Below are positions 19,457-25,472 of a stretch of DNA of 64,000 bases, piece by piece (position 1 is the first letter of the stretch; every line of letters starts with the position of its first letter). Position numbers and translations under genes: made by a program. The notes beneath the pieces are model-generated. The model was not told where the DNA came from. It searched no databases and saw only the letters and a program-made list of their open reading frames with translations. Source of the DNA: Deltaproteobacteria bacterium (GTDB lineage Bacteria; Myxococcota_A; Polyangia; JAAYKL01); the NCBI GenBank assembly GCA_016935665.1, contig JAFGQN010000223.1, positions 1-64,000 on the forward strand, given 5' to 3'.

Positions 19457-20257
19457 TTACTGATGTCGTCCGTTTCTTCCCGAGTCTGTTTTGCCCATCT
19501 GACGCCGATTGCGCATCATCTGACGGCGATCCCGGGTAGCCTTGCGCTGAGATTTGCTGCGAAAACGGTGTTCCTTACCGTCATTGATACCATCCCCATC
19601 CCTGTCTACAAACTCGGCGGTGTAGGGAGTATTCTGTTGCGCCTTTTTCTGAGATGGCTTCGCTGGTGCGGGAGCGGGAGCGAGAGCGGGCCTTTTTGAC
19701 GTTTGCGCCGCTGATTCCAACTGTTTATCTGATTTGGCTTTTGTCGTCGGTTCAGTCTGCGGAGTATGCGTCGATTTTTCCTGAGCTTCCGATTTTGTCT
19801 GACCTTCCGATTTTGTCTGACCTTCTGATTTTGTCTGACCTTCTGATTTTGTCTGACCTTCTGATTTCGTCTGACCTTCCGATTTTGTCTGACCTTCTGA
19901 TTTTGTCTGACCTTTTGATTTTGTCTGACCTTCTGATTTCGTCTGACCTTCTGATTTTGATTGGGATTTCGTTTGCACCCGTTTGGATTCGGATTCAGTG
20001 GCTACGTCAGCGGTGGGCATGGGCTGGGTTTCGGGGTATGCCTTCTTTTTCAAAGTGCGCTTTTGCGCTTTTGTTTTGGCTTTTTTGGCTACTTGCTCTT
20101 TTTTCTTCTGTTGTTTTGTCTCACCGGGTGCATTGGCATTCTTCGACTGTTCAGGACTTTCAGCTGCCGATGTCTCCGACGAAGCGGTATCATTTGCCAT
20201 GGCCAGTGGCGCCATCAATAGACTACTCAATACGATTGCTAAAAAACGACAGGTCAT
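19457..20257 (-). CDS. Exported repeat protein with KSEGQT repeats and a Ca-loop-like motif
   Basis: The chosen ATG (20257) has AGGA at a short distance and starts a signal peptide (MTCRFLAIVLSSLLMAPLAMA). The mature protein is low-complexity: a Lys/Gln-rich helix, about ten tandem KSEGQT units, an Ala/Pro segment, then DRDGDGINDGKE, a calcium-binding loop of the thrombospondin type 3/EF-hand kind, and a very basic Arg-rich tail (RRQMMRNRRQMG). It could be a periplasmic or cell-wall linker. An in-frame ATG at 20395 would put a non-secretory leader before the signal peptide and is less likely. Confidence 0.7.
   Translation of the reverse strand: MTCRFLAIVLSSLLMAPLAMANDTASSETSAAESPEQSKNANAPGETKQQKKKEQVAKKAKTKAQKRTLKKKAYPETQPMPTADVATESESKRVQTKSQSKSEGQTKSEGQTKSKGQTKSEGQTKSEGQTKSEGQTKSEGQTKSEGQTKSEGQTKSEAQEKSTHTPQTEPTTKAKSDKQLESAAQTSKRPALAPAPAPAKPSQKKAQQNTPYTAEFVDRDGDGINDGKEHRFRSKSQRKATRDRRQMMRNRRQMGKTDSGRNGRHQ
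19786..19959 (-). repeat. 18-bp coding repeat encoding KSEGQT
   Basis: About ten 18-bp units (for example CCTTCTGATTTTGTCTGA on the plus strand) encode KSEGQT; one unit reads KSKGQT and some differ by synonymous T/C changes. Near-identity between units suggests recent expansion or contraction. Confidence 0.92.
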
Positions 20258-20425
20258 CGTCCTATCCTTTCGCTCCTCATCGCAGCTTCGAACTTTTGGC
20301 GCCACGACGGTCCGCTTCATATTATAAGCACAATGTATACCACACGGATCACGCCGTGCAAAAACAGCCCCTTTCCTGAAGTTATCGTTCCTCATTTAAA
20401 GAAAGAATTCACCAAACTCGACCAA

Positions 20426-21397: not shown

Positions 21398-23071
21398 TCA
21401 GCTGGTCCGGGTATCATTTAGCGACGCCCCGGCCGCCACCATGGGAAACACATTCTCTTCCTGTTCGACAATGACATGAAGCAGCATGGCTTCGCTGGAT
21501 TGTGCCAGTTCGGCCAGTGCCCCTTCAACCTCATCAATCTTTTCCAACCTTTGGGATTTGATGCCCAGCACCTGCGCCAACGCTGCAAAATCCGGATTAT
21601 TGTCCAGCACCACACCAGAATATCGTTTGCCGTGAAACATATCCTGCCACTGCCGCACCATACCTAAAAACCCATTGTCGAGGACAATGATTTTAACCGG
21701 CAGTTTTTCCCTGCGAATGGTCACCAGTTCCTGCATGGTCATCTGAAAGCCACCATCTCCCGCCAGAACCAGCACTTCCCTGTCGGGACACCCCAGTTTG
21801 GCCCCAATGCCCGCGGGCACCCCAAATCCCATGGTGCCTAGCCCTCCGGAACTGACAAAACTGCGAGGGCTGGTGGTGGCAAAATACTGATGTGCCCACA
21901 TTTGATGCTGACCCACATCGGTGACCACAATTAGATTTTTGGGAAAAAGTTCCCGCGCCTTCTCCATCACAAACTGGGGCAAAATGGCATTCCCTTGCTG
22001 ATAGGTCAGCGGATTGTCGGCCTTCTTTTTCTGAAGCATGCTCACCCACTCGGAAAAGTTGGGCATCTCCCGATCGGCTTCAACCCATTTTTCCAGCACG
22101 TGTCTCAAATCCCCCACGATAGGCACGTCCACGTTGATATTCTTCCCGATTTCCGCGGGATCCACATCCACATGAATTATTGTGGCGTTGGGGGCAAAGC
22201 TCACAGTGTCCCCCAGAATCCGATCACTGAACCTTGTCCCCAGCGCGATGAGTAAATCGCAATGTTGAACCGCCCAGTTTCCATACACGGTGCCATGCAT
22301 GCCAATATTGCCAATCGACAAATTGCCGTTCTTTGGATTGATGCCATGGCCCATCAGCGTGTACACTGCGGGGATGCCGTACTTGTCCATAAAAGTATTG
22401 GCGAGCTCCGTGGAACCGGAAATCTGAATGCCACCGCCGGCCAGTATCAATGGCTGCTTTGCCTGGGTCATCAGCTCCAGCGCCTTGGCCACCTGTTTTG
22501 GATGCCCTTTGGATACGGGCCTATAACTTTCGAGATTGAACTCTTCGGGATATTCGAACTGGGTCGTCGCCAGCAGCACGTCCTTGGGAACATCCACCAG
22601 CACCGGTCCGGGTCGACCGGATACCGCAATATGAAAAGCGCGCTTCAGACTGGGAGCCAAATCTTCTATATCGGTAACCAGAATATTCTCTTTGGTCACC
22701 GGCAGAGAAATCCCTGTAATATCAGCTTCCTGAAAGGCGTCGGTACCTACATAGTTTGTTGGCACCTGGCCGGTTATCACAACCATTGGAATGGAATCAA
22801 TGTAGGCTGTGGCAATGCCCGTCACCGTATTGGTGGCACCTGGTCCGGAAGTGACCAACACCACACCGGGCTTTCCGGTGACTCGGGCATATCCATCCGC
22901 CGCATGGGTTCCCCCCTGCTCATGACGCGGCTGCACCATGCGAATCCCATCGCCATGCTGGTACAACTCATCAAAAATCGGAATAACTACACCGCCTGGA
23001 TAACAAAAAAGGGTATCCACTTTTTCTTTTTTCAGGCATTCAACAACAATCCTTGCACCTTTCATCGGCAT
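21398..23071 (-). CDS. ilvB: Acetolactate synthase large subunit
   Basis: The ThDP-, FAD- and Mg-dependent enzyme of isoleucine, valine and leucine synthesis. The N-terminal CYPGG and catalytic Glu in PRHEQGGTHAADGYAR, the FAD region IALGTRFSDR, and the ThDP motif GDGGFQMTMQELVTIRR are present. At 557 aa it is full length. I chose ATG 23071, with GGAG five bases upstream; GTG 23077 and ATG 23065 are alternatives. Forms an operon with ilvN. The leader (23072-23250) is pyrimidine-rich and shows no Ile/Val/Leu-rich leader peptide. Confidence 0.95.
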   Translation of the reverse strand: MPMKGARIVVECLKKEKVDTLFCYPGGVVIPIFDELYQHGDGIRMVQPRHEQGGTHAADGYARVTGKPGVVLVTSGPGATNTVTGIATAYIDSIPMVVITGQVPTNYVGTDAFQEADITGISLPVTKENILVTDIEDLAPSLKRAFHIAVSGRPGPVLVDVPKDVLLATTQFEYPEEFNLESYRPVSKGHPKQVAKALELMTQAKQPLILAGGGIQISGSTELANTFMDKYGIPAVYTLMGHGINPKNGNLSIGNIGMHGTVYGNWAVQHCDLLIALGTRFSDRILGDTVSFAPNATIIHVDVDPAEIGKNINVDVPIVGDLRHVLEKWVEADREMPNFSEWVSMLQKKKADNPLTYQQGNAILPQFVMEKARELFPKNLIVVTDVGQHQMWAHQYFATTSPRSFVSSGGLGTMGFGVPAGIGAKLGCPDREVLVLAGDGGFQMTMQELVTIRREKLPVKIIVLDNGFLGMVRQWQDMFHGKRYSGVVLDNNPDFAALAQVLGIKSQRLEKIDEVEGALAELAQSSEAMLLHVIVEQEENVFPMVAAGASLNDTRTS

Positions 23072-23337
23072 CAACACTCCTTCTGGTGTTTCCTTTTCCC
23101 TGGAAAGGGGACTAAAAAGAAAAGAACAATGTCTTCAAAAAAAGAAAAATGAGTAAACAACATTCAGTACCTGAAATCAACATTTTGACCAATACTTCCG
23201 GGGAATCCCCCAGGTCTCCATCTGAATTTTTTCGTTGCAGTGCATTTTTATTTTGCTTTTTGCCACCAGATGTGCTCAACTTTGAAATTCGTTCTTTTTG
23301 AACAGACAGGTATTATACATGACAAAACGCACATACA

Positions 23338-23453
23338 ACACCCCGGCACCTTGTTTCTGGACCATTATCGTCCTTACCGGAGGCGGTGTATGAGCTAACT
23401 GAACCCTATATAGGTCACTCAAACCCCGCTTCCAATTGCCTGGAAGCGGGGTT
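23338..23453 (+). promoter_or_regulatory. Structured leader upstream of MATE gene, candidate riboswitch or attenuator
   Basis: Nested stems can form on the plus strand: ACACC (23338-23342) with GGTGT (23385-23389), CCGG (23343-23346) with CCGG (23377-23380), and GGAC (23359-23362) with GTCC (23370-23373). The segment GGAGGCGG (23379-23386), part of the 3' strands, can instead pair along its whole length with CCGCTTCC (23426-23433), the 5' arm of the terminator, with one G-U wobble. That is a terminator/antiterminator switch. GGAGG is also a ribosome-binding site six bases before ATG-AGC-TAA at 23390. A TATTAT (23311-23316) could be the -10. I cannot match it to a known riboswitch class. Confidence 0.5.
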
Positions 23454-23460
23454 TTTTTTT
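23422..23460 (+). terminator. Strong intrinsic terminator in MATE leader
   Basis: AACCCCGCTTCCA (23422-23434) pairs perfectly over 13 bp with 23441-23453 around a six-base loop, and is followed by a run of T to 23460. It lies about 42 bases before the MATE start codon. No complete gene on the plus strand ends just before it, so it most likely acts conditionally on the MATE transcript. Confidence 0.92.
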
Positions 23461-23502: not shown

Positions 23503-24855
23503 ATGTTGCAAAAGGAAAAATGGAAGGAGCTTTTGGCACTGGCTGGACCCGTTGTGGTTTCCAAGCTGTCGTTTACGATGATGGGCATTGTGGATACGGC
23601 CATGGTGGGACACCTGGGTGCCACCGAACAGGCCGCTGCCGGCTTCGCAGTAGTTTACCTGTTTACGCTTTATGTGTTTGGGCTGGGCATTATCACCAGC
23701 GTCAATACCCTGGTATCCCAAAACGAAGGAGCGGGCCGTTCACATCAAAGCTGGAAGATTTGCACAAACGGCCTCGTAATTTCTCTGGTTCTTGGGCTTG
23801 TAACGTGGGGAGCGCTGCTAATCTCTAAGCCATTTTTTAAAATGATGGGACTCAATAGCACACTATGCCTAAAGGCATACGAATATCTTTTTTACCGTAG
23901 CTTTGGCATCCTGAGCGTTTTCGGATATTGGGTGTACAACAGCTTTTACGAAGGTATTGGCAATACGCGTATACCCATGTTGGTAACCATTGGCGCCAAT
24001 GTGCTCAATATTATTCTGGATTACGCACTGATTTTCGGTATCGGCCCCATTGAGCCTTTGGGACTGCGAGGCGCGGGGCTGGCTACGGCACTGTGCAATT
24101 TAACCATGTTTGCCACACTTGCCCTGCTGCTCCATCACGACCGTACGATTGCCAAACGGTACAGCAACCGCAGTGGTTCCAAATGGCTGGATCTGTCCAT
24201 TCTGAGACGAATGATTCGCCTCGGACTGCCCATGGGGGCACAGATGTTTCTGGAAGTTGGCGCATTTTTGGCATTTACCACAATCGCGGGATGGGCAGGC
24301 AACATCGAGCTGGCCGCCAGTCAAATCGCCATGCGCATTATGAGTATCAGCTTCATGACCGCATGGGGGATTTCCATCGCCACCACCACCCTGGTGGGCA
24401 GGCATCAGGGCGAACGCCGCAGCGATTTGGCCCAATCCGCAGTGATTCGATCGCTGACGCTGGTAGTGGGTTTCAGTCTGCTGGTTGCGGCCATGATGAT
24501 AGCGCTGAAACATACTATGGTGACATGGTTTACACCATTTCCCGCTGTTCAGGAGTTGGCCGTCCCCGTCATATGGGCGGCCTCTCTGTTCGCCATTTTC
24601 GACAGTATCAATCTGGTGAGCTACGGTGCCCTGCGGGGCGCTGGTGACACCGTTTGGCCCCTGTACAATGTGGCTGTAATGCACTGGATCGTGGGCATTC
24701 CGCTGGTGTATGTGCTTACCATCCCTCTCCAGATGGGAGCGTTTGGCAACTGGCTCGGCATGTCCATCATGATGTTTCTACAGGCGACCCTCATGCTGTA
24801 CCGCGTTAAAAGCGGCCGATGGAAGGCCATAAAACTGGTGGGACACGCCGCCTGA
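23503..24855 (+). CDS. MATE-family multidrug efflux transporter
   Basis: A 450-aa polytopic membrane protein with about twelve hydrophobic segments in two homologous halves. The N-terminal helix reads LALAGPVVVSKLSFTMMGIVDTAMVGHLG, a typical MATE start. The start of the second half reads RLGLPMGAQMFLEVGAFL. Such proteins export cationic drugs or metabolites by Na+ or H+ antiport. NorM-like and DinF-like branches cannot be told apart here. It stands alone behind a terminator-containing leader, which suggests induction by its substrate. The ribosome-binding site of the ATG is weak (GGATGG). Confidence 0.93.
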   Translation: MLQKEKWKELLALAGPVVVSKLSFTMMGIVDTAMVGHLGATEQAAAGFAVVYLFTLYVFGLGIITSVNTLVSQNEGAGRSHQSWKICTNGLVISLVLGLVTWGALLISKPFFKMMGLNSTLCLKAYEYLFYRSFGILSVFGYWVYNSFYEGIGNTRIPMLVTIGANVLNIILDYALIFGIGPIEPLGLRGAGLATALCNLTMFATLALLLHHDRTIAKRYSNRSGSKWLDLSILRRMIRLGLPMGAQMFLEVGAFLAFTTIAGWAGNIELAASQIAMRIMSISFMTAWGISIATTTLVGRHQGERRSDLAQSAVIRSLTLVVGFSLLVAAMMIALKHTMVTWFTPFPAVQELAVPVIWAASLFAIFDSINLVSYGALRGAGDTVWPLYNVAVMHWIVGIPLVYVLTIPLQMGAFGNWLGMSIMMFLQATLMLYRVKSGRWKAIKLVGHAA

Positions 24856-24871: not shown

Positions 24872-25351
24872 TCAATTCCAGCTGCAATCCCCACCGCCAC
24901 ATACAAATGAGCTTCCCCCTGGACACGCGGTGGGCGATTCGCCGCCGGCACAGATAATGCTGCAACCAAAACAGTTTACCTTGCAGCTGCCCGTGCATTC
25001 AATCTGGCACGACCCAAAATTGTCGCAGCTGGCCACACTCCCCGGCCCCACCTGGGCATGACAACTGCCAACGGAATGACAATACAGGCGACAATTCTCA
25101 TCGCACTGATGGCGACAGGTTGAAACATCTTTGCAATCAATGCGACAGCCATCGTCACACCATGTATCACACACATCCGCAGAGCCACAGTCCATAGTGC
25201 ATCCATCTCTATCGCCGCAATCCATGGGACAATCCGGACGATCGCCACAGCCACAAAATCCATCCCGACAAAAATAGCTGTCGTCCCGATGACATTCCAC
25301 AACGGAAAACATCATTAATAAAAAAAACAAACCCGTGTTTTTTGCATTCAT
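24872..25351 (-). CDS. Exported Cys-rich repeat protein
   Basis: A 159-aa protein that begins with a hydrophobic leader (MNAKNTGLFFLLMMFSVVEC). The Cys could be a lipid anchor, but Glu at -1 is atypical for a lipobox. The rest holds about thirty cysteines in short units of the type DGC-x-x-DC and GSC-x-x-x-C-x-x-C, ending in a Gly-rich CGGGDCSW. The regular spacing resembles a Cys-stapled solenoid or small disulfide knots. Tail-to-tail with the MATE gene. Function unknown. Confidence 0.65.
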   Translation of the reverse strand: MNAKNTGLFFLLMMFSVVECHRDDSYFCRDGFCGCGDRPDCPMDCGDRDGCTMDCGSADVCDTWCDDGCRIDCKDVSTCRHQCDENCRLYCHSVGSCHAQVGPGSVASCDNFGSCQIECTGSCKVNCFGCSIICAGGESPTACPGGSSFVCGGGDCSWN

Positions 25352-25472
25352 ATTTGGATATGTACCACGCTGCCTTTGCCGGGGGCAACATCTGTTCACT
25401 GTTCAGTTGCCTCTTTAACACAAACGCCCCTGTTATCGTTGTCGAATGAAATCCGGCGTTGGAACAGACAAA

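Follow-up and report, generated by a model that had tools for sequence, protein, structure and literature searches.

A putative leader-peptide transcription attenuator upstream of a MATE efflux gene in Myxococcota

The DNA analysed here, referred to as the window, is a stretch of 64,000 nucleotides from a deltaproteobacterium of the Myxococcota_A (contig JAFGQN010000223.1, positions 1 to 64,000). It contains a gene for a MATE family efflux transporter divergent from ilvB, and the leader of the MATE gene includes a short ORF, a series of alternative pairing regions and an intrinsic terminator (Table 1). No promoter-like site is seen in the 42 nt between the terminator and the MATE gene. Convergent with the MATE gene, a small protein, Cys-rich with numerous spaced Cys residues and apparently secreted, is encoded on the minus strand (24872-25399), and another minus-strand ORF (19457-20395) contains a run of near-perfect copies of the hexapeptide QTKSEG, likely a low-complexity region of variable length. 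The second MATE of the same genome (L038) is a distant paralog, 28% identical, without a comparable leader.

Table 1. Features of the MATE gene and its leader in the window
Feature	Positions	Strand	Basis
Acetolactate synthase large subunit, ilvB (divergent)	21398..23077	-	ORF sequence; same neighbour in L002 and L003
Leader ORF, 24 codons + TGA, MTKRTYNTPAPCFWTIIVLTGGGV (predicted)	23319..23393	+	Sequence; same-position ORF in L002, L003 and L043
Region 1, protector stem 1:2	23332..23346	+	CAUACA (23332-23337) with UGUAUG (23387-23392), CCCCGG with CCGGAGG; predicted fold
Codons W-T-I-I-V (TGG ACC ATT ATC GTC)	23358..23372	+	WTIxV in the genus, three-species alignment
Region 2, GGAGGCGGUGUAUGAG, antiterminator 5' strand	23379..23394	+	Contains the leader stop codon; pairing kept in L002 and L003
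Region 3, CUCAAACCCCGCUUCC, antiterminator 3' strand	23418..23433	+	Same as terminator 5' arm
Intrinsic terminator (3:4) and U-run	23421..23460	+	Sequence, predicted fold; kept in L002 and L003
MATE family efflux transporter, 450 aa	23503..24855	+	NCBIfam TIGR00797 (matE), 284 bits against a cut-off of 147

The terminator hairpin (23421-23454), composed of AAACCCCGCTTCCA-ATTGCC-TGGAAGCGGGGTTT and followed by the U-run, lies between the presumed promoter and the regulated gene. A sequence-only reading of this DNA had placed an intrinsic terminator 42 nt upstream of the MATE ATG at 23503, and this is correct; its stem has 13 bp by that count and 14 bp when the inner A-U pair is included. The same reading had claimed that GGAGGCGG (23379-23386) is complementary to CCGCTTCC (23426-23433) in the 5' arm of the terminator, which also holds, although the pairing reaches beyond this: 23379-23394 matches 23418-23433 at 14 of 16 positions, including an overlooked extension in which UGUAUGAG faces CUCAAAC. 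The energy of this 2:3 duplex is -21.1 kcal/mol as compared with a mean of -9.5 for dinucleotide shuffles, none of which (0/500) equals it. The antiterminator (z = -5.35), which is mutually exclusive with the terminator to an extent beyond chance, is the sole such case among the five terminators that one procedure detected in the window. What is exceptional at this locus is the terminator together with its complementarity to an upstream strand.

The leader ORF, likewise overlooked, spans the segment that had been taken for an aptamer, and its TGA (23391-23393) is located inside region 2. A ribosome at the stop codon would be positioned on the antiterminator strand, an arrangement that recurs in relatives. 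The Shine-Dalgarno sequence in the window is weak (ACAGG), and a -10-like TATTAT (23311-23316) could put the transcription start just 3' of the leader ATG, which counts against attenuation by this ORF. A mini-ORF, ATG-AGC-stop, follows GGAGG (23390-23398; the stop is TAA, TAG or TGA across the three species of the genus); a separate unit of this kind is unneeded because the longer leader of the two sister species ends with it in frame. A TnaC-like reading, in which Trp lies 12 residues before the stop as in the sister species, was also set aside: the window has 10 residues and no terminal Pro.

The nested stems described in the sequence-only reading do appear in the predicted minimum-energy fold (-48.6 kcal/mol, z = -4.2), whereas the 5' domain folded without the terminator is no better than shuffles (z = -0.84), and thus the stems of the supposed aptamer alone are unexceptional. 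The CAUACA/UGUAUG pairing of the protector stem is possible in L002 too, and its version in L003 is shorter and partly G-U in the predicted folds. A short hairpin (GGAC at 23359-23362 with GUCC at 23370-23373) overlaps the W-T-I-I-V codons. A transcript truncated right after region 3 is predicted to adopt the 2:3 antiterminator, and the energy model without ribosomes makes no firm choice between 1:2 and 2:3. When a ribosome is placed on the leader, with its leading edge set 12 nt past the A-site (a footprint assumed in the model), 2:3 is predicted to stay intact with the ribosome on codons up to about W-T, to be weakened at I-I and to be abolished from about V-L onward. Masking region 2, which mimics a ribosome on the stop codon, yields the terminator in the folding model. 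As modelled, the geometry is that of the textbook 1:2 / 2:3 / 3:4 attenuation logic.

True homologs of the leader were found by BLAST and a covariance model only in two other genomes of the genus (L002 and L003), where the MATE protein is 71% and 63% identical, respectively, to that of the window and its gene is again divergent from ilvB. Both keep an ORF at the same place, the 2:3 pairing and the terminator. The genus leaders, of 24-30 codons, are MTKRTYNTPAPCFWTIIVLTGGGV, MINRSYNILHSLFGTMFWTICVRTRGRCMS and MQFSSYLPIHIYRCWTITVKARGRCMS, in which the W-T-I-x-V codons are kept; the sister ATGs are aligned and equidistant from the CATA element, the ATG-to-TGG interval differing by indels of 3 and 12 nt. 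The alignment contains three conserved blocks, CTGGACCATT..GTC, GGNGGCGGTGTATGAGCT and TCACTCAAACCCCGCTTCC, the second and third of which are conserved largely because regions 2 (with 1 or 3) and 3 (with 2 or 4) do double duty. Openness of the ORF alone is weak evidence, with a probability of 0.19 given the ATGs and of 0.01 for all three species having some ATG ORF of 20 codons or more. As for coding selection, the frame and WTIxV are kept, in three sequences that are too few for a codon-level test. After V18 the leader of the window is one nt shorter than those of the sisters and out of register, ending in GGGV as compared with RGRCMS. The leader ends at nearly the same place in either frame because UAUGAGCU(AA/AG/GA) has stops in two frames in all three species.

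Outside the genus, a MATE relative from a different class of the phylum (L043), basal to the MATE clade of the window, repeats the order seen in the window, with a leader ORF (MKFVPTTNPIPVGVVPAGGGG), then the pairing of GGUGGCGG with CCGCCACC, then a hairpin; its U-run is poor, and its pairing as scored is no better than shuffles. L082 in G449 looks like the same locus. At each of the four loci in the group formed by the window, L002, L003 and L043, an ORF of 18-46 codons ends 15-35 nt short of the terminator, an arrangement found in 9-14% of the shuffles for each locus; the product, 1.7e-4, takes related sequences to be independent.

A scan for terminators with antiterminators pointed to another MATE family in the class of the window. 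Its leaders mostly have a good Shine-Dalgarno sequence and ORFs such as MNRLPRNQMLTAKSRKDFGVCIAFAAGGRLIA, with antiterminators of -31 to -43 kcal/mol (z down to -5.6), and in 15 of the 15 leaders tabulated the ORF, picked by eye, stops 21-30 nt before the terminator. Upstream regions of MATE homologs across the class were then fetched and scanned automatically for a T-tailed hairpin with an antiterminator. Such a combination is present in 30 of 63 homologs in the clade as compared with 1 of 63 shuffled sequences, and none of 29 members of a more distant paralogous MATE group passes the same scan. Of the 37 loci that bear a terminator, 28 have an ATG ORF of 18-46 codons whose stop lies 15-35 nt ahead of the terminator (1.55 expected), and at 18 of the 37 such an ORF also has a strong Shine-Dalgarno sequence (0.25 expected). 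When the stop position is left free, 20 of 23 ORFs with a strong Shine-Dalgarno sequence stop 17-35 nt before the terminator. These leaders share the architecture, and their sequences are unrelated. Changes are about equal on the three codon positions, and therefore the peptide is not clearly constrained, in contrast to the start, the stop and the register, which are kept. A test for synonymous-site conservation in the class leaders found none, and thus no conserved peptide is claimed beyond the WTIxV of the genus.

In the MATE tree, the clade of the window comprises seven members, four with and three without the element, and a second clade has 23 attenuator-bearing rows among others; each clade is well supported, and the two are not shown to be sisters. 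The absence of the element in L034 and L042/L071 may reflect loss, or else the element may have been gained repeatedly elsewhere. Seven leaders of family f12 (L130, L138, L139, L140, L147, L148 and L150) have in common V(D/G), a patch rich in S/T and, where region 2 starts, ARGxRG; the last of these probably reflects RNA pairing, not the peptide. Two kinds of match were discarded: covariance-model matches in other families, where essentially the terminators alone align, and short DNA matches to about positions 45-63 of the query in several genomes, which are coding sequence for a GTLFLDE-type motif and a chance similarity.

Most probably, the leader attenuates transcription of the MATE efflux gene by a ribosome-mediated (leader-peptide) mechanism, to judge by its sequences, by alternative pairings that exceed chance, by conservation within the genus and by the class-wide architecture. 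The suggestion of an attenuator controlling the MATE pump, made in the sequence-only reading together with that of a riboswitch, is supported by the mutually exclusive protector, antiterminator and terminator, by the absence of visible room for a second promoter, and by conservation with the MATE gene, in the sister species and, as architecture, class-wide. We infer from this arrangement that the ORF is translated, in which order the events follow, and that disturbed translation rather than one amino acid is the inducer. A promoter upstream of 23319 would give an RNA with the 24-codon ORF. On prompt translation, the ribosome at the stop codon would cover region 2 and leave region 3 free for the 3:4 terminator, keeping MATE off. 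If a ribosome stalled or fell behind within about 16 codons of the start (up to W-T-I), region 2 would be left open to pair with region 3, and the resulting antiterminator would allow RNA polymerase to read through, so that the pump is made. The inducers would be ribosome-targeting compounds or related stress.

Other readings can be weighed against attenuation by disturbed translation. A new ligand-binding riboswitch with its aptamer between regions 1 and 2, the earlier proposal, would suit the protector/antiterminator/terminator logic and the very conserved genus blocks CUGGACCAUU and GGNGGCGGUGUAUGAGCU, although these blocks are accounted for by the alternative pairings and the leader codons. 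The Rfam 15 covariance models of known classes give no match above the gathering score in the window, L002, L003 or L043, the sub-threshold matches being dominated by the terminator. The supposed aptamer, however, is an ORF with a start codon and with its stop inside the antiterminator strand, its domain folds no better than shuffles, and L043 and the class relatives repeat the ORF, the stop-to-terminator spacing and the pairings without a common aptamer-like core. A riboswitch is very improbable on these grounds. If MATE were expressed from elsewhere, the leader could be a small RNA in its own right that ends at the terminator. This would explain the strong terminator and the compact conserved RNA, and Pseudomonas ErsA is weakly similar, largely through the terminator, scoring 22.9 bits where the cut-off is 50. 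Such an RNA has no need of a terminator arm complementary to an upstream strand, only 42 nt without a promoter-like site separate the terminator from MATE, and the architecture recurs 5' of MATE genes across the class while being absent in the paralogous MATE group, all of which makes this reading extremely improbable.

Attenuation could also sense shortage of Trp or of Ile/Val/Leu. The leader of the window reads W-T-I-I-V-L (TGG; ATT ATC GTC CTT), its codons are placed where a stall would spare region 2, and the divergent neighbour is ilvB. Against this, what the sisters keep is limited to single W, T, I and V positions (WTICV, WTITV), ilvB is not adjacent to the MATE gene of L043, and induction of an exporter on starvation makes little sense. 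Runs of codons for a regulating amino acid, as in trp- or ilv-type leaders, are absent, none being shared by the three genus leaders or the class relatives, which lowers the likelihood of an Ile/Val or Trp sensor; overall, such a sensor is improbable. Since the leader frame is kept and the peptide is not clearly constrained, the class leaders speak for a putative sensor of general ribosome progress, as in bmrB or toiL, rather than for a specific arrest peptide.

The arrest peptides ErmCL and ErmAL1 contain an S-I-x-V motif and act on erm translation. Similar motifs occur here, T-I-x-V in the genus and S-I-A-V in G004 (L144), a likeness that is a lead only; the genus motif is at residues 15-18 in the window, and most class leaders lack it. 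It is rather unlikely that two Myxococcota MATE clades use a translation-stress sensor and that WTIxV of the genus is, in addition, a drug-dependent arrest motif recognising the exported compound, possibly a natural ribosome inhibitor.

Leader-peptide attenuation of exporters is already described for ABC and MFS transporters, and is proposed for an RND pump via armZ. The bmrB leader of bmrCD in Bacillus subtilis is a translated ORF that attenuates the transporter and is induced by ribosome-targeting antibiotics (PMC4191407). It resembles the present leader, where translation and induction are predicted, in the ORF, the anti-antiterminator/antiterminator/terminator series and the control of a multidrug transporter, although bmrCD is an ABC transporter of Firmicutes and its terminator lies within the 53-codon leader ORF. 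The mef(E)/mel leader of Streptococcus pneumoniae works by macrolide-specific leader-peptide transcription attenuation (PMC4335068), likewise with a short leader peptide, alternative stems and an intrinsic terminator before an efflux gene; it controls an MFS pump and an ABC-F protein, and its 8-residue peptide MTASMRLR has no sequence similarity to the present one. In Pseudomonas aeruginosa, stalled ribosomes on PA5471.1, the leader of armZ (MexXY), are proposed to relieve termination (reviewed in PMC12057347). Here, too, a leader peptide and a terminator lead to pump expression, but through an anti-repressor of the RND pump, not on the pump directly. The toiL uORF of topAI in Escherichia coli is multipurpose, sensing several classes of ribosome inhibitors (PMC12121999). 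The same role as a sensor is predicted for the present leader, although toiL acts via translation and Rho-dependent termination without an intrinsic terminator, and its target is not a pump. In the open-access papers searched, no case of leader-peptide attenuation was found for MATE or for Myxococcota.

Collectively, the leaders suggest that related Myxococcota may make the pump when protein synthesis is disturbed, and a supposed orphan riboswitch becomes a testable translation sensor. Leader-peptide attenuation of drug exporters would thereby gain MATE pumps among its targets and reach a phylum with many antibiotic producers. If confirmed, it would tell under which conditions these pumps are switched on, and would provide a large natural set of attenuators for study.
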